64,000 bases of DNA from Candidatus Poseidoniales archaeon. Its GTDB lineage: Archaea; Thermoplasmatota; Poseidoniia; Poseidoniales; Thalassarchaeaceae. Shown here in pieces: positions 27,160-55,398 of the stretch; the stretch's first letter is position 1, and each line of letters starts with the position of its first letter. The stretch covers positions 21,821-85,820 of the forward strand of contig JAPOFX010000006.1 in assembly GCA_028283505.1 (NCBI GenBank), in the 5' to 3' direction. Position numbers and translations under genes: made by a program. The notes under the pieces are model-generated. The model did not search any database. It had not been told where the DNA came from and saw only the letters and a list, made by a program, of their open reading frames with translations.

Positions 27160-30120
27160 TTGTGTCGGCGGTTAATCGTGCAAGAGAGGAGTACAGCGAA
27201 CTCTGTCCATGGGCGATTCGCGTCAGCATTGGTGCTCAGCCTCCTTTTCATGACCTCTTCCTGGGTCACTGCTGTCTCGGATCTGGAGTTGGTAGATGGT
27301 ACCAAATTCAACTCATCAAGTGATGTACAAATGAATTTGTATACCATGTACATAGCTTCTCAAAACTCCTCTGCAGGAGGCGATGGGTTCATCACTACTC
27401 AGGTTCCAGAGTCAGGAGGTCAAGAGTCAATGAGCGCCTTGAGCAATAGTGTGGAATTCAGGACGAGTCCAATGCTCTCCAGTTTAGAGGTGGCTGGAAG
27501 GCCAAACCACGGTTCTGGGTCTGGTTCATATTATCTCCCGATTGGTATTTTCTTGAGATCAACCGGCCCGGATACAGCGACTGTTGACTGGACAATTACT
27601 CTGAAAGCATCCGGCTCACAAGTTGGTTCTGCATCATGGTCCTCCGAGGCCTGCAATCCCGGGTTGACTCAAAGTTGTAGCTTTGATCATGAGACCTTTG
27701 AGATAGACATCGGAAGCGGCGAGACTTTCACTATCGACAAAGACGAGAGATTGGAATTAATTATTGATGCAGACATGTCTGGTTGCGAAGGAGGAGGAGG
27801 AAGTCCTTGGGGCGGCGGAACCAGTTGTGAGGCAGAGGTCGCGTGGAATGAAATCGATGGTGACGAAAGATTTAGCACTATAGAGATAGAGGCAAATGCG
27901 ATAGCAAACAGCCTTGTTCTCCTCCAGAGAGAGGGTGCTGAGCTAGCCGAGGGGCCTGAACTAGACTGGTATCCAAATGACATTCTTTCAGAGAGGGTGA
28001 TGCAGTTCTCATTTGATGTAAAGAGCAGTTTCGGAAGGTATGATGTTGATTCAGTGAGGCTCTTGATGAGGGACCCCAATGGTGCTTACAGAATAGATCA
28101 CGTTATTGATGAGGATGACGAAGACATCGAAGATACTAGTCAGGGTATTTTTGGAGAATACCTTTGGTCTTACCCAAGTGGTATTCCATCCGGCGAGTAT
28201 ACAGTCGAACTAGAGGTGTCCGATATACAGGGAAATAGTGTTATTGTGGAGCATGAGCCTGTTATAATGGAACAGTGGGGAGTCGCGCTCAAACACCGAA
28301 ATGATAGATCGACAGAGTACATAGCTCCTGAACAAACAACCGCTGTTCCTCTACAAATGGTGCACAGAGGAGATTCGACCAAGTCAATGGATGTGGATCT
28401 TGAAGTATTGACAAATTTCCCAAGCTCATGGCTCATTGAATTCGACTCTCCCGGAGGTTACACACTCAATTCGGGAGGAGACATATTAAACCCAATTTTG
28501 ACACTCACTGCTCCAGAGGACCTAACCGGTGCCCCCAGCTCAATCGACATCAGGGCTGTAGCCGAGGCAGAAGTCGATGGAGTGCTGCAAGTAGTCCACC
28601 AGGATACATTGCAGATAGACCTAGAGAAGATGGATGTTTTCCAGCCACCCCAAGTGTCAATATGGTCCGAAGACCATGAAATCGCCGTTGCGAACTCTTC
28701 TAGACCGGATGACTTTGATGCTTCAGCAAACAGCTATGTCGATTACAATCAATTTACGCCGTTTCTTATGGAGATCTTCAATACAGGTTTTGATGCGGAT
28801 GAGTTCAAAATCGACGTTTTACAAAGAGCGAAGGCGATAATCCAAGTTTACGACAATGACACCGGGGAAAGAATTCTCGAGGACGACGGGGATGGGACCT
28901 ACCACACTGCACTTCTGGACAGGCATCAGACACAAACTCTGAGGATTTTAGTCAAACCGTCTTCTGACAGGCTAGACCCCGATATTGGAACGATAGAGTT
29001 AGAGGTCGTCAGCACAGGGCAGAGCAACCTCTCTTCTACAATAGATTTCACCATCCAGAGGACATTCGGTATCAGGGCTGAAGTTTCATACGATTGCGAC
29101 GGATCGCCCCTAGGCCACATAGAAGTTTCTCTCTGCTCTCCAGGAACAGGTAAATCAGAAGTCACACTCAGAGCCAAAATTACCAATACAATGTCATCAG
29201 GAGAATCAGCGACATGGTGGAGGATACAAAATCCCGCCTCACTGGAAGAGAATACAGAAAGAAATGCCGCATATGGACAATGGCAATTCAGAATTGAAGA
29301 CGATTCAGGCAACGCTGTACCCAGAGTCTCCTTGGCACCGGGGGATCAAATTGAGGTATTCGTTACGGTGACTCTCACTAGTCAGGTAGAATTCGGCAAT
29401 CATACGGTTTATTTAAGAATCGTCGAGGATATCCCGGACGCGGACCCGAGATATTTCGATCTGCCAATGATATTCGAAATCGACTCAGACGATCCAAAAT
29501 TGGAAATCGTCCAAGTTTCTCCAAATAGGCTGCTTTCTCCCGGAGATACTGTCGAGATTCAAATGAAAGTGAAGAATCTGGGCAACAGTCCCCTAACTAT
29601 TCTCTTGGAGGCCGAATCTGAGTCATCAGGATGGAGTGTGGAAATAGATGGACCTTCCAACTCAGTACTCATTATTTTAGATCCATTTGACGAAGTTACT
29701 TTCGTTCTTGAGGTGTCAGTGCCAGCTTCCTCAAATAATGGTGATACATCAAGAATAGAGGTATCTGCCACGCCCTTCGATACTGATCAAAGCTGGCCAG
29801 ATGAATTGACAGCAAAAACATCAGTGGTCATGACTGTGGGCATAGACTCTCTGGTAGAGCGCCTAGTGAACGAATTCACCTACCCACGGATTTCCACGTA
29901 TGTAGTCGGAATAATAGCATTCATGTTATTGATAGCAGGAACGCAATCGGCTCTAAATCGGAGAAGGTGGAAGTCACACATGGCCTACTTGGAGGCCATA
30001 TCAGACGACTCCGAGGAGGACATTGAGGACCAAGACGACATTCCCGCGCCAGTTCTTACTGTAGAAGAGCCCGAGGTAGAGGATATAGCCTACGACGACG
30101 ATGACATCGAACTAGTCTAA
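27160..30120 (+). CDS. Large secreted/membrane-anchored surface protein with NEW3/CARDB-like domains and acidic cytosolic tail (start uncertain: TTG 27160 or GTG 27178)
   Basis: N-terminal hydrophobic signal (FASALVLSLLFMTSSWVTA), LSPGDTVEIQMKVKNLGNSPL, C-terminal TM ISTYVVGIIAFMLLIAGTQ and Asp/Glu-rich tail. Confidence 0.85.
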   Translation: MCRRLIVQERSTANSVHGRFASALVLSLLFMTSSWVTAVSDLELVDGTKFNSSSDVQMNLYTMYIASQNSSAGGDGFITTQVPESGGQESMSALSNSVEFRTSPMLSSLEVAGRPNHGSGSGSYYLPIGIFLRSTGPDTATVDWTITLKASGSQVGSASWSSEACNPGLTQSCSFDHETFEIDIGSGETFTIDKDERLELIIDADMSGCEGGGGSPWGGGTSCEAEVAWNEIDGDERFSTIEIEANAIANSLVLLQREGAELAEGPELDWYPNDILSERVMQFSFDVKSSFGRYDVDSVRLLMRDPNGAYRIDHVIDEDDEDIEDTSQGIFGEYLWSYPSGIPSGEYTVELEVSDIQGNSVIVEHEPVIMEQWGVALKHRNDRSTEYIAPEQTTAVPLQMVHRGDSTKSMDVDLEVLTNFPSSWLIEFDSPGGYTLNSGGDILNPILTLTAPEDLTGAPSSIDIRAVAEAEVDGVLQVVHQDTLQIDLEKMDVFQPPQVSIWSEDHEIAVANSSRPDDFDASANSYVDYNQFTPFLMEIFNTGFDADEFKIDVLQRAKAIIQVYDNDTGERILEDDGDGTYHTALLDRHQTQTLRILVKPSSDRLDPDIGTIELEVVSTGQSNLSSTIDFTIQRTFGIRAEVSYDCDGSPLGHIEVSLCSPGTGKSEVTLRAKITNTMSSGESATWWRIQNPASLEENTERNAAYGQWQFRIEDDSGNAVPRVSLAPGDQIEVFVTVTLTSQVEFGNHTVYLRIVEDIPDADPRYFDLPMIFEIDSDDPKLEIVQVSPNRLLSPGDTVEIQMKVKNLGNSPLTILLEAESESSGWSVEIDGPSNSVLIILDPFDEVTFVLEVSVPASSNNGDTSRIEVSATPFDTDQSWPDELTAKTSVVMTVGIDSLVERLVNEFTYPRISTYVVGIIAFMLLIAGTQSALNRRRWKSHMAYLEAISDDSEEDIEDQDDIPAPVLTVEEPEVEDIAYDDDDIELV

Positions 30121-30162: not shown

Positions 30163-33100
30163 GTGCCCTACTTTCTGCCAATCAGTTTGGTGAGTAGCGT
30201 GCGCAATGCAGGAGGACGGTCCCAAGACAACTCTGTAATCACCAAAAGGCGCTCAGCAATCCTATTCTCCGCCTTAATGCTTCTCTCATCATATTCCGCT
30301 TTGGAATTCAGTGCGTGGGAGGCTCTGGCGTCCTCTGACCAGGATGGCGATGGACTTTCATACGGGTTAGAATTTTACATTAATACACAACCTCAGGACT
30401 GGGATTCCGATAATGACGGCCTTCCTGACGGGTGGGAATGGCAATATGGGCTGAACCCACTGTCTCCCAATGGAGACAACGGCTCAACGGGCGATCCAGA
30501 TGGTGACGCTTTTAGTAACCTCAATGAGTATCAATACTCCATTCCCACCGGTTGGGATCTTTCATCAACCCCAAACGTTCTGGATAACGGAGTTTGGTGG
30601 AACGGTACAGTACCAGTGAGAGATTGGGACGAGGAGAGCGCAATGCAACTAATCCAGGGACTCAACTCAGATGGTGCAGATGAGGACCCCAGGGGGAATG
30701 TATGCTTCAACACGTTTGATGATGACAAAGACGGAATGGTCGACAACTTCGACGGTGATGGTGACGGAGACTCGGATTGTTCGAGTGACGATGACGATGG
30801 CGATGGTCTAATCGACGAGGATCCGGATGGATGGGATACCGATGGAGATGGTATGCCGGATGGCTGGGAGGCGGCAAACGGCTTGGACCCCACGTCAAAC
30901 AGCAACCAGGACGGAACCTTCGGAGATCCAGACGGCGATGGACTAATCAACATCAAGGAGTATGTAAACCCCGCATGGGGTACTAGGAACGGCACAACTA
31001 CGCCTCCTACACAATATTTCCGACCGGGCCCTCTTGCAATGACTGCCACTGAAACCCCATGCAATCCCGTATTGTCCTTGGGGCCAGGTGGTTGTGAATT
31101 CCTTACTGCTGAGGTCGATGGAATAACCTCAACAGACCCCCAGTCAAATGACACAGACGGGGATGGTCTCAACGACTCCTACGAGGCACTTATCCTCCTC
31201 ACTGACCCGACATCAGTTGATACTGACTCCGACGGAATAGAGGATGGCATAGAGGTTCTGGGCCAGTATGGGGACCCTCCACAGGCCAGTGACCCTAGAA
31301 ATAATAACACAGATGGGGACCAATTCGATGACGGGGAAGAGGATCTCAACGGTAATGGGATCGTTGACATGAATGAGACTGACCCCACTAGGATAGAAGA
31401 TTCAGGCGACTTCGACGGAGATGGTATCCAAAATTGGGAAGAGAATATGACGTGCACCCTATGGAACGTTTTCGATACTGATGGGGGAGGAGTTTCAGAC
31501 GGAGACGAGCTCCTACCTTTCCACAACTCAAACCCGTGCCTTTCAGAACAGACCTTGACACTTCAGATACTCGCCTGGGACGCCGTAACGTCAGCACTAA
31601 CACTCAACTCCACTGCGGATTTAGATCAATCCCCGATAGATTGGAGGCAAAATGATGCCCCCATGGCATACTACGTTCAATCAAACGGTACTCTGGTTGA
31701 CTTCAGGTACGAATCAGTGGACATCGGAGTTCTGAGGAATGTCGATACCGACCTTCCAGCTAACACCTCTACAGTCCTCTTTACAAACTTCTCATGGTGT
31801 TGGGACGCATCAGTGGGTGCGGTGAACGATCCTATTTGTGACGACGACTACTCTGATTCAGATGGAGATGGACTGGCGGATTGGGAGGAATACCTGGCCA
31901 CATGGGGTTTCCCAACCAATCCGAATTTGGTCGATACGGACTCCGATGGCGTAGATGATTTAGACGAGATTTTGAATGGAACGGACCCATTGGAACCATG
32001 TGAAAATTTACTTGACACCGATGGTGACGGTTTGAACAACTACTTCGAGAACACTACGGGGTGCGTGGTTATCTTCCCGGGGATGGGAGGTAACTTCACG
32101 AATGACACGTACTTCACTCTATGGAATGAATCTGATACAGACAATGGGGGCGTTACAGACTTCCAAGAGTATCTGGACGGAACGAACCCACAGGATAATC
32201 CCAATGACGATAGAAATCCAGTGGATACCGATGGAGATGGCATACCTGACACTATTGAAAACTCAACAGGAACCGACTGGAGAGACCCCGATACCGACGG
32301 AGGGGGAATTCCCGATGGCCAGGAGTGCACTTCCGAGTTCTGGGACGGACAGTGCGAAGGCTCAGCAGGGGACCCATGGGACCCATCCGATGACATTTCA
32401 CAAAACTCCATGTACCTCTTAGCCACTACCCAATCCTCTATTCTGGACTCAACAAACAAGATATATTGGAGGTGGCATACCTATGACCATTATACAAGAA
32501 TTTCCTGGGGTGTTAATACTACTCTGGTTGGAAATACCCAAATGTCAACAGATTTCTCGACCACACAAGGGGTGGCTGACCAGCAATTCTGGGATAATTC
32601 GACACTCATGGGATGGGAGATTCAATACGAGGGTCCCGGTGTGGCTGATACGGGCGAGGAACTGATCCTCCCTCACAATACGGTCAATTTCACAGGATGG
32701 ATTGACCCAACAGCAGGACTGAATTTCTCAAACTTCACGAGAGACGTCTTGGTTGATGGATCCTCCGTTGATACGGTTTTCATAACCACTCCTCAAGTGA
32801 CAATCACTCAGGCGATACGAGAGAACACCACAGCATTCACCGGCACCGACTATGCCACAGACCTGCCACGAGAGTTTACTGATAGGGGAGGTGCTCAGGA
32901 ACTCGTAACTGGTATCACTCAATCCGTCATAAATGATTCAGGCGCACTCTCAGCATGGGACAAAGTTTCGGCCATCGCGAACTTCTTGACTAACGGAAAT
33001 GATACATTCACATTCCTAAGGAATAACAATGGTACTGAAGTCCCTGATATGGTTGAGGATGAAGGAGATTTAGCCTATTGGATGCTTAATAATTCATTTG

Positions 33101-36100
33101 AGGGAAGCTGTGATCAATTCTCTTCCTTGTTTGCAGTCATGCTCAGAACCGTCGACATACCATCCAGAAAGGTCACAGGGTTCTCAGGCGGCTACTGGAA
33201 TGGAGAAGCATTCGAAGTATACGGGAAGGATTTCACATCATGGGTGGAAGTACACCTGCAGACCAATCAGAACCTAGGTGATGCGGATCTTGGCTGGATA
33301 CCTTTCGAGGCTTGCCCACCCATGTCCATAGTTGAGGTATCGGACGAGACCTGGGGGCCATTATCGGTCGACAGGGACTTGGCAGGGGACTCAATATGGA
33401 TGAATGGTACTCTGAGATTCTCAGATAACCAGACAGCTGTTGACGGGGTAACCGTGGAAATGTATCTGGTCAAATCAAATATGACTTCGTTAATTCCGGG
33501 AATCGCAGCATCTTCTGAGCACTTTATTGGCTCTACCGTAACCGACGCAAATGGCTCATTTAACATCACAGGACTACCGTCAGAAGCTGTAGATCCAGGC
33601 AATGCTTCCCTAGTGGTACTAACAAAAGCGTTGGGTTATGTAGGATTTCAAGGAATCTACTCCAACTGGGATTTGAATATCTCGGATGATATCTCAATCA
33701 ACATCACTGAGCCACAACCAATCGTAGAACCCAAGTTAGGTATCGGTGTAAACACCACAATATCGGGCTTAATGACCCTGGAGAATGCTCCGTATAATGA
33801 TGTTTCGCTAATAGATTCTATGCAGGTCATAATGAACTACACGACAGTTCAGGATGGCCCAGTGAGTCTTATCTCAAGTGTGGGGCCAGGTGGTTACTTC
33901 GAGTTCTCCGTCTCAATTAACGAGAGTGAGCAAGAGGGCCTTGTAGCCGCAACGATTGATTACGTCGGATGGCACCAATATGACCTGAACAACGCTACAA
34001 GCCCAATTTACCATATTAGACCAACTTCTAAGTCATTTAATCTAAACCTAACCCAGGCCCCGAATTTAACGATCACACTAGAAGGAGAAGGACTGAATAA
34101 TACTATTCTGGAAATTAACAGGCCTATCTACCTCAATGGGACGGCTCTAAGCAAATCTGAGACGCCTGAGGCCCTCAATGGGACTCTGGAATTTCAGATG
34201 AGAAGATCAGGTACCAATGCACCATTTATCACCCTTGCTAGCTGGTATCTCAATGATTCTGATTGGCTCTCCTCACCAGGCCAGTTTTCTTTGAATTGGT
34301 CATTCTTAGACTCCGATGTCCCCATTCCTGCTGGCCTAGTTGAAGTAAGGTATCAGTATCTGGCCGATCAGTTGTTTGCCAGAGATGAATCTACTGTAGT
34401 GGATGAGCATGGAATAAAGAGCTACATACAATTCAACTACACGATGAGCCCATCTCCTAAAGGCAGTGTATCAGAAGTCCTTGTCAGACTGTCGGACCAC
34501 ACCGGATCTGAGATTACCTCATACCCAGGGGCATTCTCACTCCTAGTGGATGGAACAGAGGTATGGAACGAATCCGCCCCTGATGTCCCAAAGGTAATGA
34601 CATCCTGGACGCCCTCACTTTTGGTCGATGCAGGGGACTATCCATGGGTTTTGAGCTACAACGGCTCCACATGGGTCGGCCCTAACTCCACTAGCGATAC
34701 AGTTAGGATTCAAGGAAGGGCTTCTCCCAGTTATTCGTTAGGCACCGAATGGGTCCCAATGGGCAATACAACATGGGTCACAGGAACAATTGTTGATTTT
34801 GACCTAAACACCACAGTCACTGGAAATAACACATCCGTATCTCTGTTCTTGGATGTCCCCTCTTCTCTACCTGCAGGGCCAGATGGCAACCCGTTGCCTC
34901 CTGACAGGTATCCATTAGGTTCGGATTGGCTAAATTTAAACAATGGTGAATTCAACATCACATTCTCTATGCCGGGCGGAATCGGTTCTGGCGTTTATGA
35001 TGCAGTAATCATACTTGACTTCGAGAAGAACTCGCCAGATGGGGTCCCCTACTATTTTGATCCATCCCCAGAAAATAAATTTGATATTGGCATCCAGACA
35101 ATGTTCGATGTTGAATCTAATGTCACTAGTGCCATAGTTGTCGCAGGAGAGAACCTGACAGTCTCTGCCACTGTCGTAGATATCGAAAACAATGAACGGT
35201 TGAATAATGCAACTGCGGAGATTTACTTTGATTGGGGGGGCCCTCTGCAACAACTTTTGAACACCTCCATCACCGGCACGGATGGGGTAGTTGAATTCCA
35301 AACTTTAGTTCCGAGCGATTCCCCACCCGGTTACTATGATGTTCTTGTATTAGCCCCCGATGACTTAACCGACTCACTAGATACCCCCAACGCCGGAAGG
35401 TGGCTATCGGGTGAAACTCTCCTGAACCTAACTGTGCAAGTTCAGAGCAACGTCAGAATTGATAATGCTCCACTTCCAGAGGTAACTGCAGGTCAATCCT
35501 TTTTGATTGACGGACAAGTTTTGGATTCTTTCGATCAAAATAGATCGGTCGATGGCCCAGTGTCTCTAGAGGTATTTTTCTTGAACGATCCGAGTGAAAA
35601 GCTTATCACGGGCTTTGCAACTACCTCAAATGGCTCATTCAGTCTCACAGTTCCAACTGATCCATTCGGAGACGGAGTCACCAGTGGACTGAAAACTCTC
35701 GTGATTAGTGTAGAAAACGGAAGTAGCCCATTTTACCTCACTGGGTCCGGTTCAGAATCTATTCTGGTGAGGGGTGTTGTTCAATTCAATGACAGGGTCC
35801 CCTTGATCAATACAATTGTAGACAGAGGGTCATCCATCTCATTCGGGGCCAAAATTGTTGAGTCGTCAGACAACGATAGGGAACTCCAAGGAATGAATGT
35901 ATCCGCTAGATTCCACGATACTTGGATTTCCACAGAGGCTACATCTGACTCAGGGGGAATCGTCAATTTCTCATTTGATGTCCCTCACTCGCACCCCCTT
36001 GGGACAATAACAGTCATGCTGATGTTCAATGGTTCAAATGGAACAGAGACCCTACACTCTTCATTCACATTTATCAACACGATAATAATTAGGTCTCCCA

Positions 36101-39100
36101 CCTCGATAACTTTTAGCCCGATTACCTCCAATCCCTCTGCAGGAGACTTCCTTGATCTATCTGGAAACCTTACTTCCAGCAACGGCAGTGGCATCGTAGA
36201 CAGGTCAGGAAATCCATTATCGCCAAGTCTGACCTTCCTTATTGATGGGTCATCAAATGGATTTTCTGTCACTGGAGGTTCGGTCAGCCCCAACGGAAGT
36301 TGGAATGCTAGGATATTTTTGGATATGTCATTCCCTAGGGGGACCCACAACATTACCGCTACATATACTCCTACTGTAAATTATTACAGCTCCAGCTCTG
36401 GCGACACTACTTTCGATAGTCGTGGTTTTTCAATGGTTTCGATCATTTACCCAACTGACCTCGATCCCGATGCAAGAACAATCAGGGGAGACTCGTTCGA
36501 TCTCAACATTTCTGTTATCGATAATTCAGGAGCGAACGTTAACGATGTTGAGGTAAAGGTCCTGATTGATGGCTTAGAACATTCAACAGGACTTACTGAC
36601 TCTCAGGGCCTGGTGAATACCAGTATTTCTACCGAATCTAATAGGGATCCTGGGCCAATGACAGTAACAGTCGTGTTCGAAGGTATCAACGGAACTACCG
36701 GTTTACTTGGAGATCAAACCTGGACAAGAGTTGTCATTCTTGCCCCAACTGTAATTGATGTGACTGCCATTTCAGGTACTTCTGTGGCAGGGGAGCAAGT
36801 AATTTTCTCAGGAACACTTCTTGATGAACATGGAATGCCTCTGATTGAGGATGGTGCCCCGAAAGGAGGAGTCTTGCACCTGTCGGTCGATGGGATAGAC
36901 GTGGGACCAATCTACATTGACGTTTCTAATTCCACCACAGGTACATGGCAAATAACATACGACATCCCTCTAGACACGGACTACGGTCAGCACACTTTCA
37001 CGATAGAATTCCTCGGCGGTTTCACGTGGGTGGACCCAATGGGACAGGGGGATTCCTTGAATCCAGAATATTATCTCGCTTCGGAAATCACCCTTCCATT
37101 CAACGTGACACAGACTTCACAGGTTGTCCTTACTACTCCCCAAGGTGAGATTGATAGAAATGAGCTCCTACTGATTGAAGGTATTCTCACCGATGGGGCC
37201 GGAAGGCCGTTGGATAACAGAACTCTTGAAGCCTACATGAATGGCCAATTACTGACTTCGCTTAACGTGGATTCAAACGGTTCATTCAGTCTGTTCTTTC
37301 CGGTTCCGTCTAATATGCCATTGGGTCCAAGAGAAGTGACCTTGGAATTCCAGGGGGAGGAATTTATTATTGGCTCAAATTCTACAACTATCTTTACAGT
37401 TTTTTCCCCGACCACGTTATCTTTGACTAGTCCAGAGCCACTTGCGGTGGGCGATGTGCTAAATCTAAGAGGCGACATTAGAGATAACCTTCCAGATGGG
37501 TGGCTCGCAAATCACTCTCTTCAGATATTTATCGATGGGATTCTAATTGGAACTACAATTTCTGAAGAAGACGGGTCTTGGCATCTTTCATGGATAGTAT
37601 CGGAGTTCCTAGACGTTGGAGTGCACAAGATAACAGTCATTTCTCCCGATCAGGGTTACTACAGGCAATCCACAGCTGAGGCTAATCTCTCCATAGCCTA
37701 CCACACAACCATTAATCTGAACGTTGAAAATAGCGTGGCTACTAGAGGCGGGAAGTGGGATTTCTCCGGTAGGCTTTATGATTCCGACAGTGATGGTACT
37801 CCCGGATTGGAAGGAAGAAACATTACATTTTTCCTGGATGGTGACGAAATTACCACGATTTCTACAGGTACAGATGGAACATTTTCACTGACATACGATC
37901 TCGGATACTCCATATCTAGAGGCGGCCATGAGATCAAAGTGGTATACTCAGGAGAGGAACTTTACCTTTCCTCTACAATAAGCACCACTGTTTTCTCAAA
38001 GGCCGACATCGAGATTGAATTACTAACTATCTCAGACGAGGTCGTCAGGGGAGACGAGACTAGGCCAATTAAGATCAGGGGCAGGATATTGGAGATTGGT
38101 GGAGATGCCAATACCATGGAGGAGATGGAACTCTCGCTGAGTTGGGAGGAATCACTCGAGCCTAATGCCGTGATTTCATGGGACCCTGCAACCGGACAGT
38201 TCCTAATTACTTCCAATGCGAAGACATACATGCCACCCGGCCCTTCAAACTTCACGATAGACGTAAGTCCTGATGCAGAGAGATTTTTGAATGGGGCTTC
38301 CATAGATTTGGATATCCAAATTTTAGTCAGCGTAAACTTCGAGTTCATCCCCGACTCCCTGTTCATTAAGAGAGATCAAAATAAGATTTCTGGTAAAATA
38401 AATGTCACGGCATCTGATGATAATCGTAGACCTCCCATTGAGGGGGTTTCCATTACCGCCAGACTAGTGAATGAGACCGCAACCCACTTCACAGTTGTCG
38501 GGATGACCGACGAGAATGGAATTTTCGATTATCAATTCGAGTCATTCCATGAAGACCACCCATTCTGGGATAGGTCATTCTGGGGTGTTTTAAGCATCGA
38601 GTTTAGTTCTGATTCGGAAATTATTGATCCGGTTAATTCAACTCAGTTATCCCTGTTTAGCGAAGTGAGTATCAGCTACCAAGCCGAGGAGTCTGAGTCC
38701 CTACTACAGCCAGCAATTCTTTCTATTATACTAGTCATTGTCATAGGAGTAGTTTCAATGCTTGTTGTATCATTGAGGAGAAAGAGGCAAGCTGCAATAG
38801 ATGAGTTAGCTGGGGTATTCAGTTACACGGCAGAACTCTTGGCTGCAGGAGATGAGGTAAGGGAAGCAATCTTCAATTGCTACGAGGGACTTTGTTCCAT
38901 CTTGATGGGCCGAGGTTTCCTCAGGAGAGATTTTGAGACTGTCAGAGAATTCGAGATGGCAATTAGAAGCGCTTTGCCGATTAGCGAGCAGTCCCTTCTC
39001 TCATTGGATAGAATTTTCGAGGAGGCCAGATACTCCAGTCATATTCTAGGGGAGCCTCATAGGGAGAGCGCACAATTGGCTCTAAACTCTGTCCTACAAG

Positions 39101-39159
39101 AAATAGACCAACTGGAAGATGTACCAGCAAGGCCACAGGGAAAACTGATCGAGGATTAG
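30163..39159 (+). CDS. Giant 2998-aa surface protein: TSP3-like Ca-binding repeats, transglutaminase-like domain, tandem Ig-like repeats, C-terminal TM and DUF4129-like cytosolic region (GTG start uncertain)
   Basis: Repeated DxDGDGxxD/E motifs; SCDQFSSLFAVMLRTVDIPSRKVTGFSGGYW..SWVEVHL..LGWIPFEACPP; repeated NGSFxLxxxVPxxxxxGxxxVxxxF; TM AILSIILVIVIGVVSMLVVSLRRKRQ. Confidence 0.87.
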   Translation: MPYFLPISLVSSVRNAGGRSQDNSVITKRRSAILFSALMLLSSYSALEFSAWEALASSDQDGDGLSYGLEFYINTQPQDWDSDNDGLPDGWEWQYGLNPLSPNGDNGSTGDPDGDAFSNLNEYQYSIPTGWDLSSTPNVLDNGVWWNGTVPVRDWDEESAMQLIQGLNSDGADEDPRGNVCFNTFDDDKDGMVDNFDGDGDGDSDCSSDDDDGDGLIDEDPDGWDTDGDGMPDGWEAANGLDPTSNSNQDGTFGDPDGDGLINIKEYVNPAWGTRNGTTTPPTQYFRPGPLAMTATETPCNPVLSLGPGGCEFLTAEVDGITSTDPQSNDTDGDGLNDSYEALILLTDPTSVDTDSDGIEDGIEVLGQYGDPPQASDPRNNNTDGDQFDDGEEDLNGNGIVDMNETDPTRIEDSGDFDGDGIQNWEENMTCTLWNVFDTDGGGVSDGDELLPFHNSNPCLSEQTLTLQILAWDAVTSALTLNSTADLDQSPIDWRQNDAPMAYYVQSNGTLVDFRYESVDIGVLRNVDTDLPANTSTVLFTNFSWCWDASVGAVNDPICDDDYSDSDGDGLADWEEYLATWGFPTNPNLVDTDSDGVDDLDEILNGTDPLEPCENLLDTDGDGLNNYFENTTGCVVIFPGMGGNFTNDTYFTLWNESDTDNGGVTDFQEYLDGTNPQDNPNDDRNPVDTDGDGIPDTIENSTGTDWRDPDTDGGGIPDGQECTSEFWDGQCEGSAGDPWDPSDDISQNSMYLLATTQSSILDSTNKIYWRWHTYDHYTRISWGVNTTLVGNTQMSTDFSTTQGVADQQFWDNSTLMGWEIQYEGPGVADTGEELILPHNTVNFTGWIDPTAGLNFSNFTRDVLVDGSSVDTVFITTPQVTITQAIRENTTAFTGTDYATDLPREFTDRGGAQELVTGITQSVINDSGALSAWDKVSAIANFLTNGNDTFTFLRNNNGTEVPDMVEDEGDLAYWMLNNSFEGSCDQFSSLFAVMLRTVDIPSRKVTGFSGGYWNGEAFEVYGKDFTSWVEVHLQTNQNLGDADLGWIPFEACPPMSIVEVSDETWGPLSVDRDLAGDSIWMNGTLRFSDNQTAVDGVTVEMYLVKSNMTSLIPGIAASSEHFIGSTVTDANGSFNITGLPSEAVDPGNASLVVLTKALGYVGFQGIYSNWDLNISDDISINITEPQPIVEPKLGIGVNTTISGLMTLENAPYNDVSLIDSMQVIMNYTTVQDGPVSLISSVGPGGYFEFSVSINESEQEGLVAATIDYVGWHQYDLNNATSPIYHIRPTSKSFNLNLTQAPNLTITLEGEGLNNTILEINRPIYLNGTALSKSETPEALNGTLEFQMRRSGTNAPFITLASWYLNDSDWLSSPGQFSLNWSFLDSDVPIPAGLVEVRYQYLADQLFARDESTVVDEHGIKSYIQFNYTMSPSPKGSVSEVLVRLSDHTGSEITSYPGAFSLLVDGTEVWNESAPDVPKVMTSWTPSLLVDAGDYPWVLSYNGSTWVGPNSTSDTVRIQGRASPSYSLGTEWVPMGNTTWVTGTIVDFDLNTTVTGNNTSVSLFLDVPSSLPAGPDGNPLPPDRYPLGSDWLNLNNGEFNITFSMPGGIGSGVYDAVIILDFEKNSPDGVPYYFDPSPENKFDIGIQTMFDVESNVTSAIVVAGENLTVSATVVDIENNERLNNATAEIYFDWGGPLQQLLNTSITGTDGVVEFQTLVPSDSPPGYYDVLVLAPDDLTDSLDTPNAGRWLSGETLLNLTVQVQSNVRIDNAPLPEVTAGQSFLIDGQVLDSFDQNRSVDGPVSLEVFFLNDPSEKLITGFATTSNGSFSLTVPTDPFGDGVTSGLKTLVISVENGSSPFYLTGSGSESILVRGVVQFNDRVPLINTIVDRGSSISFGAKIVESSDNDRELQGMNVSARFHDTWISTEATSDSGGIVNFSFDVPHSHPLGTITVMLMFNGSNGTETLHSSFTFINTIIIRSPTSITFSPITSNPSAGDFLDLSGNLTSSNGSGIVDRSGNPLSPSLTFLIDGSSNGFSVTGGSVSPNGSWNARIFLDMSFPRGTHNITATYTPTVNYYSSSSGDTTFDSRGFSMVSIIYPTDLDPDARTIRGDSFDLNISVIDNSGANVNDVEVKVLIDGLEHSTGLTDSQGLVNTSISTESNRDPGPMTVTVVFEGINGTTGLLGDQTWTRVVILAPTVIDVTAISGTSVAGEQVIFSGTLLDEHGMPLIEDGAPKGGVLHLSVDGIDVGPIYIDVSNSTTGTWQITYDIPLDTDYGQHTFTIEFLGGFTWVDPMGQGDSLNPEYYLASEITLPFNVTQTSQVVLTTPQGEIDRNELLLIEGILTDGAGRPLDNRTLEAYMNGQLLTSLNVDSNGSFSLFFPVPSNMPLGPREVTLEFQGEEFIIGSNSTTIFTVFSPTTLSLTSPEPLAVGDVLNLRGDIRDNLPDGWLANHSLQIFIDGILIGTTISEEDGSWHLSWIVSEFLDVGVHKITVISPDQGYYRQSTAEANLSIAYHTTINLNVENSVATRGGKWDFSGRLYDSDSDGTPGLEGRNITFFLDGDEITTISTGTDGTFSLTYDLGYSISRGGHEIKVVYSGEELYLSSTISTTVFSKADIEIELLTISDEVVRGDETRPIKIRGRILEIGGDANTMEEMELSLSWEESLEPNAVISWDPATGQFLITSNAKTYMPPGPSNFTIDVSPDAERFLNGASIDLDIQILVSVNFEFIPDSLFIKRDQNKISGKINVTASDDNRRPPIEGVSITARLVNETATHFTVVGMTDENGIFDYQFESFHEDHPFWDRSFWGVLSIEFSSDSEIIDPVNSTQLSLFSEVSISYQAEESESLLQPAILSIILVIVIGVVSMLVVSLRRKRQAAIDELAGVFSYTAELLAAGDEVREAIFNCYEGLCSILMGRGFLRRDFETVREFEMAIRSALPISEQSLLSLDRIFEEARYSSHILGEPHRESAQLALNSVLQEIDQLEDVPARPQGKLIED
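30338..32340 (+). repeat. Thrombospondin type 3-like calcium-binding repeat region within the giant CDS
   Basis: Many Asp-rich motifs such as DQDGDGLSYGLEFY, DSDNDGLPDGWEW, DTDGDGMPDGWEAANGLDPTS, DTDSDGVDDLDEILNGTDP. Confidence 0.88.
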
Positions 39160-45890: not shown

Positions 45891-48029
45891 CTAACTTCCT
45901 CCGGATATTCCTAAACCTGGTATCCTTGTTTTATTTTCAAGGTAACGTAGTATCAAAGCCAAAGTCCATGTTACTATGAAATAGGAAATCAGAACCATTC
46001 CATATGACCAGAAAACTTGGAAAGTTACGGCATTGATTAGCTTAGCCTTTCTTGTTAATTCGGAGTAACCGATCACCATTGCCAAGGAAGAGTTTAGTAC
46101 CAAATTGACCATTTCATTCCCCATTGGAGGTATACAGATCCTGATTGCTTGTGGCATTATTATCAACCTCATTGTTTGCATGTAGTTCAGCCCGATACTC
46201 CTGCCTGCTTCCATTTGCCCAGATGGTATCGCGGAGATTGCACCTCTAATGGTCTCACATTGGTAAGCTCCGGAATTTAGTCCGAGAGCGAAAATTGCAC
46301 TCACGCACGCCCTGTTGGATAGAATGTCGTCCCTTAGGAAAGTCGCGATCAAACCTGTCGTCCCCTCCAGTAATTCAGCGGCTGGGTCGCCAACAAGGGC
46401 CCCTATCTGAACGCCGAAGTGAATGAAGAGGAACTGGACAATCAATGGAGTATTTCTAAAAATATCGGTATAGATCGTAGCAATGAAGTTCAGAGGTCTA
46501 ATTCCCCATGGATTCCATGATACAGTTCTGCCGAAAAGTTCCCGCTCCGATTTTTTGTACTCACCATTGGCTGAAATGAATAATGATCCCAGTAAAATTA
46601 GGCTTACTCCAAAAATTAGATATGCGATGTTTACGAATTGTAATTCCCCAGTGACTCCTTCTGGGTTGATAATTCCAATGGGGGCATAGATGTATTCCCA
46701 TCCATCTAGTCCAAGTCCTTGAATTATGGGAACGAGGTAATTCAAGAATTTCAAACCAACAATGAAGGCCAAAGCTCCAAATAGCCTGACGAAATTAAGG
46801 CCTCTTTTTTGAGCAATTTCCTTTAGTGTGGTCGGGGAGGTCTTCATCATAGATAGTGTGATTCCTAGGAAGAATCCGAGGAAAATCCCGAATAAAACAA
46901 TATTTATTGTGGCGAATAAGCCATCAATCAACATCCCCTTGGAGTAATCAACGAAGCTTCCAAACTCACTGAAGTCTCTCACTTCAAATCCAACTTGTTC
47001 ATTCTCACCGGCTCTTTCGGTAATCAGAATGGTCCCTCCACTGCCCACAGTTACCCCGTTGAACCCATTTATCATCACAATGTCATTGAAGGATGTCAAA
47101 TTATCCACAGGAATCAATTGCCTTGTAACGATATTTCCACCGTCCTTGCTCATAGAGAGATACCCTCCAGAGCCAGAAAGTAGGAATTTATTCGTGCTGG
47201 CGACCTCAATCGAGGTCAAATTAGCATCGAGATTACTGGAACCACCTTCTGATTCAAAATACTGCATATTCCAAAGGAATCCAACTTGGGTGGAAATCTC
47301 CCTTGAGGACTTTAGAACCTCTCCATTATCGGTTATGGCGTATGCCCTAATATCACTGTAGAACTCGATATCTATGATCCTGGATGATGATGCCTCTGAT
47401 GGCGAATCCCTGTAATCCCAGGTAACTCCCCCATCATCGGAGAAAAGTATGGCCCCGTCCTCACCTACGGCAATCCCTCTTTCGGAATCCAAGAAAGAAA
47501 CATCAAGCAGGTCCACTCCACTTACTGAGTAATCATTCCATGTTTGCGATTCATACTTCCATATGCTCCCATTGCTTCCTACTGCAACAGCAGAATCATT
47601 TCGAATGAGAGAAACTCCTGTGATACTCTCTTCACCGATTTCAAATGAGATATCGGCCCACTGATGCGCGGATTCATATTTGATTATGACCGTACCATCT
47701 GAACTGGCGGCTAAAATTGATCCAAATCCGGAGTCAGACATCGACAATTCAGATGAGGTTATCACGTTGGCAAAACTCCATGACAGACCGCCATCCAGAC
47801 TTCCTAAAACGACTCCTCCCTCACCGAAGGCCCATATTTCATCCTCTGTTGCCTCAACTGAAAGCAAGTCATTATTAGTGCCACTTTCGACTTTATCCCA
47901 CCCACTTCTATATTCCTGGGCACCTACAGGCATGGAAACCAGTAAAATTGACAATAAAACAATTACAAAATATCTGTAAATGTAGCTATTAGACTGAGCA
48001 TCTCCTTGAGAAACTCTAGTTTCACTCAT
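45891..48029 (-). CDS. Fusion: N-terminal Ycf48/BNR-like beta-propeller ectodomain plus polar amino acid ABC transporter permease
   Basis: LGSLDGGLSWSF, FSDDGGVTWDYRDSP, MSKDGG repeats, then HisM/GlnP-like DIFRNTPLIVQFLFIHFG and SIGLNYMQTMRLIIMPQAIRICIPPMGNEMVNLVLNSSLAMVIG. Confidence 0.88.
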   Translation of the reverse strand: MSETRVSQGDAQSNSYIYRYFVIVLLSILLVSMPVGAQEYRSGWDKVESGTNNDLLSVEATEDEIWAFGEGGVVLGSLDGGLSWSFANVITSSELSMSDSGFGSILAASSDGTVIIKYESAHQWADISFEIGEESITGVSLIRNDSAVAVGSNGSIWKYESQTWNDYSVSGVDLLDVSFLDSERGIAVGEDGAILFSDDGGVTWDYRDSPSEASSSRIIDIEFYSDIRAYAITDNGEVLKSSREISTQVGFLWNMQYFESEGGSSNLDANLTSIEVASTNKFLLSGSGGYLSMSKDGGNIVTRQLIPVDNLTSFNDIVMINGFNGVTVGSGGTILITERAGENEQVGFEVRDFSEFGSFVDYSKGMLIDGLFATINIVLFGIFLGFFLGITLSMMKTSPTTLKEIAQKRGLNFVRLFGALAFIVGLKFLNYLVPIIQGLGLDGWEYIYAPIGIINPEGVTGELQFVNIAYLIFGVSLILLGSLFISANGEYKKSERELFGRTVSWNPWGIRPLNFIATIYTDIFRNTPLIVQFLFIHFGVQIGALVGDPAAELLEGTTGLIATFLRDDILSNRACVSAIFALGLNSGAYQCETIRGAISAIPSGQMEAGRSIGLNYMQTMRLIIMPQAIRICIPPMGNEMVNLVLNSSLAMVIGYSELTRKAKLINAVTFQVFWSYGMVLISYFIVTWTLALILRYLENKTRIPGLGISGGS

Positions 48030-49683: not shown

Positions 49684-52600
49684 CTATTTTCTAGCCCTCA
49701 ATCGATTTAGACGATGCTCGAAAGAATCGAAATCCTCGGATCCACCATCAATGTTTGATGGTGCTCCCTCGTCCTCTAATTTTTCATCAACACTCTCTTC
49801 TAATGCCTCACTTTCTTGTTCTCTGTGGCTCTTCTCCTCCTGGGCCAATCTGGATTTCCTTTCCAATGCCTTCTTCTCTACTGCTAACCTGGTCTTTTCC
49901 ATCATCTCTCTTCCTTCCCTGAAGTTTTTGGCCATCCAGGCAAAGGCAATTGAGGCCCCAATAACCAAGATTGCAGAAGCAATAGCGGTGCTTGAATCGC
50001 TGAACCCACCTTCTGAATCTTCTGAACCAGATAGGATTATTCTGGCCTCATTATCGGTTTGATCGGAGTCCTCATCCCATGGGAACTCGCAGCTTATGGT
50101 CGCCACGAGCTCAACACCATCGCTTACATCGGGCCTTTCTACCCTAGGTCTAGGGGCCAGTGCACTAGACTCAGACATATCTACAGAGTACTCTCTTGAA
50201 TATGAGCCGGCTTCCACCGTTATACTGCAAATCGACTCATCTAAAATTTCCTGATTACTTCTTTTGGTTAGGATAGATATTTCTTGTCCCTCGCCCGTCC
50301 CCACAATTTCCAATCCCACGAGGCCAACGTTCCAATCAGTCCTCCTGACATCAAACAGCTTGCTGGTTGAAGAAACCTCCACTCCTCTCGAATCTATTAC
50401 CCTAATCGTTAACTCGCTAATACCAGGTTCAGGACTCCAATCATCCGCACTTAGATTGATTATCCCCGAGGCCAATCCAGAGTCAACTTCACTTGAAACG
50501 GAATCAATCATTTCCCCCTTATCACTAGATAGGATTATTGTAAATTCAAATTTTCCTGTGCCATTCATGATCATACAATTGGCCTGTATTGAGGACACTT
50601 CTCCACTGATGGAGCAACTGGCTATTCTGGAAGGTATTTCTGAAACCCAGGATTTGTATTCCAGGTCAATTGATGAATCAATTAGAAAGCTCCCATTTTT
50701 CCCTATTTCTGAATTCCAGAGCCAACCAATTGGATCTGTCCATGGAAGTATCCCAGACTCGGAGTCGATTACAGTGCTACTCGGGTTGGTCCCGTGAATT
50801 TTCATCGCATACTTATCCCCAGAAGTTGAAATAATCACGGGGCTACTCCCCCATGAGTAATTTTCCTTTCTAGTATCCAAAGAAATCTCCCTCTGATTTC
50901 CTTGGGTGTCAGAAGCTAGGATTCTTATGGTTTTTACATCTCCCCCCCACGATTCGTCGGGAATTACTTCTAGTGGCACTCCTGCAATCTCCCCAGATCC
51001 CAGAATAACACTCTCATCTCCAGATACCTCCCATCCAAATGGGAGGCTAAGTACCATGAAAGAGATCGTACTCGGTGAGTTACCAGTATTCTCTATCATA
51101 GCCAAGGGGTACCCCCCATCTCGGCTCACAACCCACTCTCCAAAACCTGTCAGGGAAAAATCATGGGTTGCAGACACTCTTATTGGGAAAACAATCTCAG
51201 AAAGGCCCGTGGAGTCGCCCTCTCTTATCCTGAGGTTCAGTTCGACCGCCCTGCCATGAATGGCATTGTCAGGAGGGGTAATATTGAGTAGCAAGGGAGC
51301 ACTTTCGCCCGGATCGATGACAGGAAGATCCGCTATATCCCCAATCTGCCAACCGCTCTCTCCGGATACGAACATGGATATGTATGGGCGCGAGGGGGAA
51401 TTTCCAGTCTGTATTACCGAGAGTAAGATCTCTGACCCGCCCGGATCAACTTCCAGGCTAGCCTGATTAACGACAGCATTCCATGAGGGTACGTGACCCG
51501 ATCTGACTGAGAATGAGAATGTCGAAACCTCTTGTCCCCGCGAAATTGCAATTACTGTTACTTCAACCTCAGAACCACTCCAAGCATCATCAGGGATGCC
51601 CGCACCAATTTTCATAATCACACTGTCATTGACTCCGACGCCGAAAACTGTATCTCCATATGAACTCCAATCAGTAGAGACATCCCCCTCCTCTAAAGTG
51701 ATAGAAATAGAAGTAATCAGTTCCAAATCATCATCTAGATTGCCAACATTGGTGGCTATAACGCTCATCTCAAAGTCCTCGCCAGGATTAGCCATTACCG
51801 ACGCTCCTTCACCTTCATTTTCTTCCCCTTCAGTTACGAAATATGGATAGATGTCCCATTGGTGGTCCTGCCTGGCCTCAAATACAATTTCAACTTCAGA
51901 GCTAACGCTGCCATCCCCCAGCGATTGCATGACAAATAATATCCTGACTGGCACTCTGGCAGGGGTTTCTTCAGGAAGAATGACAGTAATAGGGACAGTT
52001 GTCAGACTTCCGGCCGATAATGAGACCAAGTCTCTTGAAAAGGATACAATGACTCCGGGATCTTCAGAGATGTTTTGGTCTAATAACACTGAATGACTTA
52101 AATCGTACGAGTCTACTCCGTTACCTGGGTTCTCAAGCCTCAATACAACGAGTGCTTCTTCATCGACATCAACCAATATTGGCACTTCAGAGGGCGATGA
52201 TTTAACCATGGATGACCTGTATATTTGTAGGATTTCGAGGGATAATCTGAGCGAATGATCAGATGACTCGTTACTTGAGTCTTCGAAGTAATGAAAAGCT
52301 GGCGCGGCAGTGCTGGGGAGATCCAAAATCAATGATCCCTCCCCACTTCCACCAGTCACGTCCAAAGTAACAAGGTCCCCATTAATCGATAAATCCCCAG
52401 ATGATGACCATATCCAGCCAGTTTTCGCCATTCCAGAAGAAGAAAGAGACCATGTCAAGGTATCGGTCCCAGAAGGTTTGTCGCCCTCTATATCCCAGAC
52501 AAGGTTTGTTGTTGGGACACTTCGAATGTGGCTCCGGCTGACCACTCCAGATGCAATGAATGTCAACTCAACAGTCTGGCAAGACTCATCACCATCAACA

Positions 52601-55344
52601 CACATCGTCAGTGATGTCTCAACATAATCACCAATTGAGACAGATTGCTGATTTTGATTGGTTAACGGGACCTCCAGATATGCTTCCAAGACTAGTTTCT
52701 CCCCCGGCCCAAGAACCAATGCAAATCTCTCATTGCCATCCTCGTCGTATAGTCTTAGATCGCTTCCCCACAGTGTGTTATCCCAATCCATGGAAATCTG
52801 ATTCTCTGCCGCATTGCCTATATTTTCAACTACCATCCATGCTCTGGCAAAATCTCCAATCAACCCATGCCCGGTGCTGAATGAAGCACCCTCTGGACCC
52901 CTTATCGAAAGACCCCTGGTTCTGTTTGCCTCAACAGGAACTATTGAGGAAATAGTAACATTTTCATCACTGTCCAAAGTCATACTCAGTGTAAGAAAAC
53001 CAGAGTCGGAACCAAGCGCGTTTCCAGGAGCACTCACTTCAATTGAAGGAGACCACGTTTCCCCTACAGGAATTTCAATATTCTCAATCCCTCCTGCTGA
53101 AACATCTGACCATGACCAACCTGGAGGCAGTCCTGAGTCATCAACACTGAGGGACCATGTGCCGGATAGACGTCCAGTTGATCTTATTGATGGCTGTATA
53201 ATTTCATTCTCTCCCGGCGTGATCCTTACAGGTTCTGACGAGGTTTCGAAAGTTACATTGTAAGTTGGAATTATCGATAGTACTTTGGCGAACAAGTCGT
53301 TATCGGTCCTTGTTTGAGATATATTACCGAACGGATCGATCTCTAGGGTGAATTCATGGTCACCCAGTGGTCCAGACCATTCAATGGAAAATGACTCAAA
53401 AGACCCAGTTCCGGTCGGAGCTACTGGTTGCAATGAGCTAAATCGGTGCCTACCTATCTCTGCCCCATCTACATAGAGTACAGCATCCACATCGGAATCC
53501 GGATTGGATGTACCGCAATTTTCCACAAAAGCGGTAATTTGTACATCTTGGCCAGGATTTGGTGAAGTCGGATCGAATTCTATTCCTCTGCCATCTAGTA
53601 AAGGCCTGATATCTGCTCTTTCCAGAGAAATTACAGTTCCTCCGATGATAACATCTAGGGTTCCATCGCCATCAATATCCGCCAATGATGGAGATGACCA
53701 TGTTCTCTGATTCAGCTCCAAATCACTGGACCATTCTGTACTAATCCCCGAGCCAGTCCCCTCCGATCCGTCGAATGCCCACAAAGATCGTCCAAAGCCA
53801 ACCACTAACTCTGGTTCACCTGTCCCCTCGATATCCATCCAAACCGGTTGTGAGACTGCTATCTCATCATTCGGAGTCCCACTGCTCTGCTCCAGATCTC
53901 GATGCCAAGCCTCATCCGGACTTGAAGTGTCAATGTCATCTACACATCCAGCTATTCCGTGTCTTGCCGTAGTAGTCTGCCACCACGTTACCCAACACAT
54001 TCTATCGTGGTCTCCATCTCCGTCTGTATCTATTGGCAATGGGGGGGCATCTGCATAACCATTAGGAGCTGAATAAGACCACTTTTCCGAGCCATTTGAG
54101 ACCTCAATTCCCCTATACTCAGCCCCATCCAATGTGCCAGATGAGTCACTATCAGTGGGAATTGTGACTATAATCTCTGGATTATCGTCACTGTCCAAAT
54201 TTGCGACTATTGGACCCGGGAGTCGTATGTGGGGGACATTTGAGTCACCATCCAAATTTCCCAGCGATTTCCCATCCCAACTAGGATCTCCGCTGGATGA
54301 ATCTAGCTTCCAGAGCCACATAGCACCGTTTGTTGATTCAGTTGTTGTTAGCATCACATAGGCGGTGTTCTCATCGGTCTGTACGAATACTGGGTCAGAT
54401 CCATGGCTTCCATACCCCAACCTTTTGTTCCATAAAATCGAAGGAGACCCCGAGGAAGGCAAAGAGATCGCAATAACTTGGGGAGTGTTGTCAGACTCTC
54501 TGATGGCTGAGATAACCAGCTCTGCATCGCCATCAAGATCCAAGTCAGCCAGAAGTGGTTGAGAGGTTGGTTTGTGATTTCCCCATATACTTCCAGTGTA
54601 AGGCCCCTCTTCGCTACTAATCATCAAGTCAGTGTCTTCCCATGACCAAATCTGTTGACTGTCTTTGTTTCCGCCGTAAGACCACCCTGTTACGCTGCAG
54701 GAGAGGATAGGGGACCATGCTTCTACCTTCATTTTGGCATCACTGCCAACAATTACATCATAAACGACAATTATCTCAGGGCCCCCCATCCCATTAATAT
54801 CAACAATCAACGGAGAGGCCTTCACCTTCTCACTTTGGCCTAGATTAACTTCCCATGCCAGATCTGAATCCTCACCTTCGACTATTCGAAGGTAGCTATC
54901 GCCAGAAGACGAATCAGTTTGAATCAGGACGGTGAATAGAGAGCTCCCTCCGCACCTCTCGGATGAATCAGAATCTACAATTAGCGACTCGCTAAAGTCC
55001 CCGATTGGTGTCCCCAGAGAATCCGTCCCGAGATCATAGCTACCATATTCCCAGTTAATCGTGGGGTCTATAATCGATAATAGGGAATCAGCGCCACCAA
55101 CTGGGTCATGTGCCGGGCTTCCGGAGCCCCTGTCTGGGGTTCTTCCTGGTTGGGGCCAAGGCTGGTCACCATCCGACCATGGATCATTAGAACTAGTCCC
55201 AGAGACCTTTTCGTAATTCGAATTTGATAACTCCTCATTGGAAATCAAGAAAATCGGATAGATGACAACAAACAGCATTATTGCAGAAATAATTAGGGCT
55301 TTTCCTCGCCCGGTCGGGGCATCTCGCTCACTAAGGGTTGCCAT
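49684..55344 (-). CDS. Giant surface protein (~1886 aa): FG-GAP/VCBS-like repeats, CARDB/NEW3-like domains, N- and C-terminal TM, charged coiled-coil tail
   Basis: DLDLDGDAELVISA, NLDSDDNPEIIVTI, DIDGDGTLDVIIGG; CARDB-like NPGQDVQITAFVENCGTSNPDSDVDAVLYVDG; TM IASAILVIGASIAFAWMAKNF followed by E/K-rich tail. Start set at MATLSERD (55344). Confidence 0.86.
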   Translation of the reverse strand: MATLSERDAPTGRGKALIISAIMLFVVIYPIFLISNEELSNSNYEKVSGTSSNDPWSDGDQPWPQPGRTPDRGSGSPAHDPVGGADSLLSIIDPTINWEYGSYDLGTDSLGTPIGDFSESLIVDSDSSERCGGSSLFTVLIQTDSSSGDSYLRIVEGEDSDLAWEVNLGQSEKVKASPLIVDINGMGGPEIIVVYDVIVGSDAKMKVEAWSPILSCSVTGWSYGGNKDSQQIWSWEDTDLMISSEEGPYTGSIWGNHKPTSQPLLADLDLDGDAELVISAIRESDNTPQVIAISLPSSGSPSILWNKRLGYGSHGSDPVFVQTDENTAYVMLTTTESTNGAMWLWKLDSSSGDPSWDGKSLGNLDGDSNVPHIRLPGPIVANLDSDDNPEIIVTIPTDSDSSGTLDGAEYRGIEVSNGSEKWSYSAPNGYADAPPLPIDTDGDGDHDRMCWVTWWQTTTARHGIAGCVDDIDTSSPDEAWHRDLEQSSGTPNDEIAVSQPVWMDIEGTGEPELVVGFGRSLWAFDGSEGTGSGISTEWSSDLELNQRTWSSPSLADIDGDGTLDVIIGGTVISLERADIRPLLDGRGIEFDPTSPNPGQDVQITAFVENCGTSNPDSDVDAVLYVDGAEIGRHRFSSLQPVAPTGTGSFESFSIEWSGPLGDHEFTLEIDPFGNISQTRTDNDLFAKVLSIIPTYNVTFETSSEPVRITPGENEIIQPSIRSTGRLSGTWSLSVDDSGLPPGWSWSDVSAGGIENIEIPVGETWSPSIEVSAPGNALGSDSGFLTLSMTLDSDENVTISSIVPVEANRTRGLSIRGPEGASFSTGHGLIGDFARAWMVVENIGNAAENQISMDWDNTLWGSDLRLYDEDGNERFALVLGPGEKLVLEAYLEVPLTNQNQQSVSIGDYVETSLTMCVDGDESCQTVELTFIASGVVSRSHIRSVPTTNLVWDIEGDKPSGTDTLTWSLSSSGMAKTGWIWSSSGDLSINGDLVTLDVTGGSGEGSLILDLPSTAAPAFHYFEDSSNESSDHSLRLSLEILQIYRSSMVKSSPSEVPILVDVDEEALVVLRLENPGNGVDSYDLSHSVLLDQNISEDPGVIVSFSRDLVSLSAGSLTTVPITVILPEETPARVPVRILFVMQSLGDGSVSSEVEIVFEARQDHQWDIYPYFVTEGEENEGEGASVMANPGEDFEMSVIATNVGNLDDDLELITSISITLEEGDVSTDWSSYGDTVFGVGVNDSVIMKIGAGIPDDAWSGSEVEVTVIAISRGQEVSTFSFSVRSGHVPSWNAVVNQASLEVDPGGSEILLSVIQTGNSPSRPYISMFVSGESGWQIGDIADLPVIDPGESAPLLLNITPPDNAIHGRAVELNLRIREGDSTGLSEIVFPIRVSATHDFSLTGFGEWVVSRDGGYPLAMIENTGNSPSTISFMVLSLPFGWEVSGDESVILGSGEIAGVPLEVIPDESWGGDVKTIRILASDTQGNQREISLDTRKENYSWGSSPVIISTSGDKYAMKIHGTNPSSTVIDSESGILPWTDPIGWLWNSEIGKNGSFLIDSSIDLEYKSWVSEIPSRIASCSISGEVSSIQANCMIMNGTGKFEFTIILSSDKGEMIDSVSSEVDSGLASGIINLSADDWSPEPGISELTIRVIDSRGVEVSSTSKLFDVRRTDWNVGLVGLEIVGTGEGQEISILTKRSNQEILDESICSITVEAGSYSREYSVDMSESSALAPRPRVERPDVSDGVELVATISCEFPWDEDSDQTDNEARIILSGSEDSEGGFSDSSTAIASAILVIGASIAFAWMAKNFREGREMMEKTRLAVEKKALERKSRLAQEEKSHREQESEALEESVDEKLEDEGAPSNIDGGSEDFDSFEHRLNRLRARK

Positions 55345-55398
55345 CAGAATAGCAAATGGTATTTGGAACACACTTGAACGTTCGCACCATATTCTCTC

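Follow-up and report, generated by a model that had tools for sequence, protein, structure and literature searches.

The closest sequence in the Protein Data Bank (PDB) to the domain described here belongs to TgpA of Pseudomonas aeruginosa (6g49/6g4h), a membrane-anchored protein whose extracytoplasmic transglutaminase domain has an intact Cys-His-Asp triad and measured activity (PMC3507681). Other proteins have kept the fold and lost catalysis, among them Band 4.2/EPB42, Rad4/XPC, FBXO21 and CC2D2A, which have scaffold or binding roles and are eukaryotic and mostly intracellular (PMC10318531; PMC13073648). The transglutaminase-like domain of budding yeast Cyk3, a binding or activating domain, likewise has an incomplete triad, in which Cys has been lost while His and Asp are kept (PMC4758748). 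Here a domain with the reverse pattern, Cys kept and His lost, is described from a 2998-amino-acid (aa) archaeal surface protein encoded in a 64,000-nucleotide stretch (the window) of contig JAPOFX010000006.1 from a Candidatus Poseidoniales archaeon. Unlike TgpA, this protein lacks the catalytic His throughout its order and has added a second Cys, and its ectodomain of about 2800 aa contains TSP3 and immunoglobulin (Ig)-like repeats followed by one C-terminal transmembrane (TM) helix.

The preferred reading, to which a probability of about 0.7 is given, is that the transglutaminase fold here is catalytically dead, with its former nucleophile tied up in a structural disulphide, and that it belongs to a TgpA-like surface protein which occurs as a single copy almost throughout Marine Group II. 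The identity of the domain is well supported: window positions 33091-33330 translate to NSFEGSCDQFSSLFAVMLRTVDIPSRKVTGFSGGYWNGEAFEVYGKDFTSWVEVHLQTNQNLGDADLGWIPFEACPPMSI within the 2998-aa open reading frame (ORF), and Pfam Transglut_core (PF01841) matches residues 933-1050 with E = 2.3e-11 and a score of 44.4 bits, where the cut-off is 23, as the initial annotation had proposed by eye. A profile built from 38 orthologous domains of the order finds TgpA 6g49 as its best PDB match (E = 2.2e-8), and the hidden Markov model (HMM) alignment sets 'lts-WvE' over 'AHA-WVE', which places the Thr of FTSW on the catalytic His of DAHAW. Aligned profile to profile with six intact Thermoplasmatota domains (probability 99.5, E = 2.2e-22), the domains of the order fall into the same register, with key columns, order against intact relatives, of C/C, T/H, E/E and C/T. 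The earlier by-eye placement of Thr at the His position is thus confirmed by both routes.

Conservation was counted over 97 distinct orthologous domain sequences of the order. The catalytic-His position, two residues before the W of WxE, is occupied by Thr (49), Ser (21), Ala (15), Gly (4), Asn (4), Arg (2), Lys (1) or Asp (1) and never by His, so that a single-genome variant, which the initial annotation had named as a way in which it could be wrong, is excluded by the agreement of all 97, as is a sequencing error. The catalytic-Asp position, in the GWxxx[DE] strand, holds Glu (43), Asp (35), Gln (8), Asn (6) or Ser (2), plus Arg, His and Tyr; an acidic residue is present in 78 domains, the window protein having Glu. 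W1027 and E1029 are unchanged in every domain. No invariant His was found anywhere in the domain, so the other refutation named initially, a different conserved His, was not borne out either, and the His of VEVH is unsuitable as a displaced catalytic residue since it is His in only 64 of the 97 sequences and R, K or N in the rest. Because both positions vary across the order, neither Thr1025 nor Glu1049 looks like a new catalytic residue. The proposal of a 'Cys-Thr-Glu pseudo-transglutaminase' therefore holds as regards a pseudo-transglutaminase with Thr in place of His but is too specific as a label: loss of the His is common to all the orthologues.

The Glu is also a poor sign of degeneracy, and this part of the earlier argument for a degenerate triad does not stand alongside the loss of His. 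Relatives with intact Cys and His have Glu at the Asp position as well (FEPT, FETT). The Marine Group III (MGIII)-like relative L091, from the same class and with a 2709-aa open frame, reads Cys-His-Glu, with Thr at the 1051 position and no second Cys. Glu was therefore present at the Asp position before His was lost, and does not by itself indicate inactivity.

These counts bear on the possibility, also raised initially, that the domain is an active enzyme of altered chemistry, in which a substitute for His would activate Cys983, such as Glu1029, Glu1049 or a side chain contributed by a neighbouring domain or partner protein. Both Cys983 and Glu1029 are invariant, and atypical papain-like catalytic sites are known, functional examples with atypical triads being Bacillus Tgl, GP42 and Streptomyces mTG (PMC10318531). 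However, the domain has no conserved His, its His and Asp positions vary freely, and Glu1029 is the Glu of the WxE motif, which active relatives also possess and which is hence not new. A CH motif like that of GP42 is absent, since the residue following Cys983 varies, and if the nucleophile were free in an oxidising space, a second Cys that never varies would be unexpected at the tunnel Thr position. Altered chemistry found no positive evidence and is considered unlikely.

The second Cys, which the initial annotation missed, is Cys1051. It lies two residues past the Asp position, is as invariant as Cys983, and occupies a column that is Thr in the intact relatives, corresponding to Asp358+2, or Thr360, in human transglutaminase 2 (TG2). 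Thr360 of TG2 is conserved and forms the active-site tunnel together with Trp241 and Trp332 (PMC13073648). That Cys1051 is the partner of Cys983 is suggested by the distribution of cysteines over the whole ectodomain, which in the window protein contains exactly 14, falling into seven consecutive pairs: 181/206, 300/311, 431/459, 546/559, 613/634, 722/731 and, last, 983/1051. The first six, invariant or nearly so, lie in the TSP3 region (residues 57-731). Between residues 731 and 2906 there are no cysteines other than Cys983 and Cys1051, so the two must pair with each other if the remaining cysteines pair locally.

Comparison of Cys columns over 63 full-length orthologues shows that ectodomain cysteines are gained and lost in pairs. 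Twelve of the 14 are invariant, and 722/731 are jointly absent from the same five rows. The variable cysteines of other genera fall into sets with identical rows (164/172, 276/285, 2666/2666, 1903/1903, 2770/2813, 2659/2669 and others), leaving two lone variable sites, and 56 of the 63 ectodomains have an even number of cysteines. A homologue of the thiol oxidase VKOR is present in 21 of 21 relatives, the window's own genome included. Taken from these sequence patterns, the Cys983-Cys1051 bond would be a structural disulphide. One genus (L064-L067, L127) breaks the even-number rule with a lone extra Cys at the equivalent of residue 77, which may pair with another protein.

Two other accounts of the cysteines were weighed. 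The pair might be redox-active, its reversible disulphide serving as a surface redox switch or thiol oxidoreductase, and it is true that the former active site has two invariant cysteines and that human TG2 is regulated by a Cys370-Cys371 disulphide (PMC13073648). Against this, there is no CxxC motif, the two residues behave like the other structural pairs of the protein, and a DsbD_TM-type reductant was not detected in the organism's own genome; a redox-active pair is accordingly judged quite improbable. Alternatively, Cys983 and Cys1051 could be unpaired and separately conserved, for instance as a metal site or in intermolecular disulphides with the product of the upstream gene. The six non-terminal cysteines of that 986-aa partner form three close pairs of their own (165/173, 209/223 and 646/659), leaving none spare, the domain has no further conserved His or Cys ligands, and the location of Cys1051 beside the nucleophile favours an internal bond. 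This account is regarded as very unlikely.

Several points weigh against a dead domain closed by a disulphide. As the atypical triads that function show, a missing His is not proof of inactivity (PMC10318531). Two invariant cysteines cannot show covariation, an odd number of cysteines occurs in seven of the 63 ectodomains (runs of X being present in one of the seven), and a DsbA-like Thioredoxin_4 protein was looked for and none found. Structural modelling gave little help: AlphaFold runs on residues 775-1096 and 893-1060, each with 15 homologues, reached a predicted local distance difference test (pLDDT) score of 37 and 47, respectively, which is poor and makes the distances unusable, and the top Foldseek match against the PDB, the transglutaminase-like 3kd4, is weak (probability 0.47). 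The low-pLDDT secondary structure does match the fold, with a helix starting from the Cys segment and strands at FTSWVEV and GWIPFEA.

If the disulphide reading is correct, the catalytic His would have been lost and the constraint on Asp or Glu relaxed at the base of the order, where the tunnel Thr two residues past the Asp position would also have been replaced by Cys. By stapling the Cys983 helix to the β-strand that follows the Asp position, the resulting disulphide would shut the active-site tunnel and make the fold more stable outside the cell. With the Ca-binding TSP3 region on one side and the Ig-like stalk on the other, the domain would then act as a rigid module, structural or ligand-binding, and the TM helix and DUF4129 tail would join the stalk to the cytosol. 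A variant in which the bond is a reversible lock, opened by surface redox conditions or mechanical tension to re-expose a ligand site or a nucleophile with a non-His base, with the signal passed to a MoxR/DUF58 complex by the TM helix and DUF4129, is regarded as very unlikely.

In a tree of the domains the order forms one clade (support 100/100) on a long stem. Large ORFs with a transglutaminase core also occur in other Thermoplasmatota (the MGIII-like L091, and L095, L097, L099 and L104), most with a DUF4129-like C-terminus, but unlike the window protein none has the second Cys. L091, L097 and L098 keep both Cys and His, whereas the large proteins L093, L095 and L099-L105 have Ser in place of the catalytic Cys (GSS, GTS, GNS or GPS) and keep the His. 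The latter substitution would represent a second, complementary route to a pseudo-transglutaminase, and from the sequences it seems that the same kind of domain has been inactivated more than once in the phylum, although the deep branches of the tree are weak. Lineages that lost Cys rather than His provide a natural series for the study of transitions from enzyme to structural domain.

Pseudo-transglutaminases as such are already known. No earlier report of a retained nucleophile whose partner is a Cys acquired at the tunnel Thr position was found in a literature search that did not reach most subscription papers, and the probable reuse of the nucleophile in a disulphide would be a new way of disabling such an enzyme. 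What appears to be a dead form of the fold has here become fixed throughout an order of dominant surface-ocean archaea, in which annotation pipelines would name the protein a transglutaminase or protease, implying cross-linking or peptide degradation that is probably absent.

Of 263 genomes from the order (Marine Group II/Poseidoniales), 244, covering 21 of 22 genera, have a single-copy orthologue of about 3000 aa; within the window's family it is present in 136 genomes out of 148. Together with its constant length and synteny in these uncultured organisms, this makes it a strong candidate for a core component of the Marine Group II cell envelope. The initial annotation placed the domain in a calcium-binding adhesin-like stalk; the stalk is indeed part of the protein, but a probable C-terminal DUF4129 was overlooked. 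The latter is matched by Pfam with E = 6.7e-4 and 20.1 bits, below the cut-off of 24.8, and the tail resembles those of the Thermoplasmatota relatives L091, L097, L098 and L105. A DUF4129 tail is expected in TgpA as well. With its TSP3 region, transglutaminase fold, Ig-like repeats, TM helix and probable cytosolic DUF4129, the protein is better described as TgpA-like than as an adhesin stalk alone. Thrombospondin-type proteins have been suggested to serve adhesion in Marine Group II (PMC6461757), and the TSP3 region is consistent with that proposal. A phmmer search of the whole 2998-aa protein against the PDB returned no matches, and no relatives were seen in viral contigs. Coordinates of the features are collected in Table 1.

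Table 1. Features of the 2998-aa protein and its upstream partner, in window positions
Feature	Position	Strand	Basis or remark
Upstream partner gene, 986 aa, secreted or anchored, NPCBM_assoc	27160..30120	+	ORF, Pfam, locus comparison
2998-aa surface protein ORF	30163..39159	+	GTG start; ORF call, Pfam domains
Hydrophobic N-terminal segment, residues 29-55, putative signal or anchor	30247..30327	+	By eye from sequence
Acidic TSP3-repeat region, residues 57-731	30331..32355	+	Pfam TSP3_bac, 5 stretches; Cys columns
Transglutaminase-like core, residues 933-1052	32959..33318	+	Pfam PF01841; TgpA 6g49; hhalign to intact relatives
Cys983, former nucleophile	33109..33111	+	Invariant, 97/97
Thr1025 at catalytic-His position	33235..33237	+	His in 0/97; alignments to 6g49 and intact relatives
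Glu1049 at catalytic-Asp position	33307..33309	+	Varies across the 97
Cys1051, second Cys, Asp position +2, proposed partner of Cys983	33313..33315	+	97/97; pairing pattern
Ig-like/CarboxypepD_reg-like repeats, Cys-free in window protein	33340..38652	+	Pfam; Cys list
Predicted TM helix, residues 2848-2871	38704..38775	+	By eye from sequence
Cytosolic tail with DUF4129, residues 2906-2973	38776..39159	+	Pfam, below cut-off

The stop codon of the 986-aa partner gene is separated by 42 bases from the start of the 2998-aa ORF. Wherever a locus of the order extends far enough, the partner gene precedes this ORF and reads in the same direction. Scored on loci of sufficient reach, the conserved order is lipA, SDR, small ORF, 986-aa partner, 2998-aa gene, XPD-like helicase and HD protein, with most small-ORF matches coming from the family of the window. 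The same synteny as in L046 was observed around the Marine Group II gene on a contig (L045) deposited under the name 'Chloroflexi bacterium isolate SP4360'; wrong binning or naming of that metagenome-assembled genome is the likeliest cause.

TgpA-type proteins are usually accompanied by MoxR-DUF58-DUF4350 genes. In the window's own genome this set is on a different contig (C11, L162) and does not adjoin the 2998-aa gene, and a second DUF58/DUF4350 pair lies on contig C17 (L161); it is possible that the MoxR, DUF58 and DUF4350 products are cytosolic partners of the DUF4129 tail.

Separate proteins of roughly 530 aa (about 520-670 aa in L145, L148-L153 and L155) with an intact-looking Cys...HAW motif were also encountered. 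Many second-family genomes have one, as do a few from the first family; in the four genomes of the window's genus that the search covered no such separate protein was found, only the present domain. A second, weak Transglut_core match in the window's own genome (L002, E = 0.025) was set aside, since its sequence resembles an initiation-factor-6-like protein. Elsewhere in the window, a 1895-aa protein on the minus strand (49684-55371) with FG-GAP, CARDB and NPCBM_assoc matches is a further giant surface protein, and a 712-aa protein (45891-48029) joins a PSII_BNR/YCF48-like β-propeller match to an ABC-transporter permease domain, an unusual fusion.

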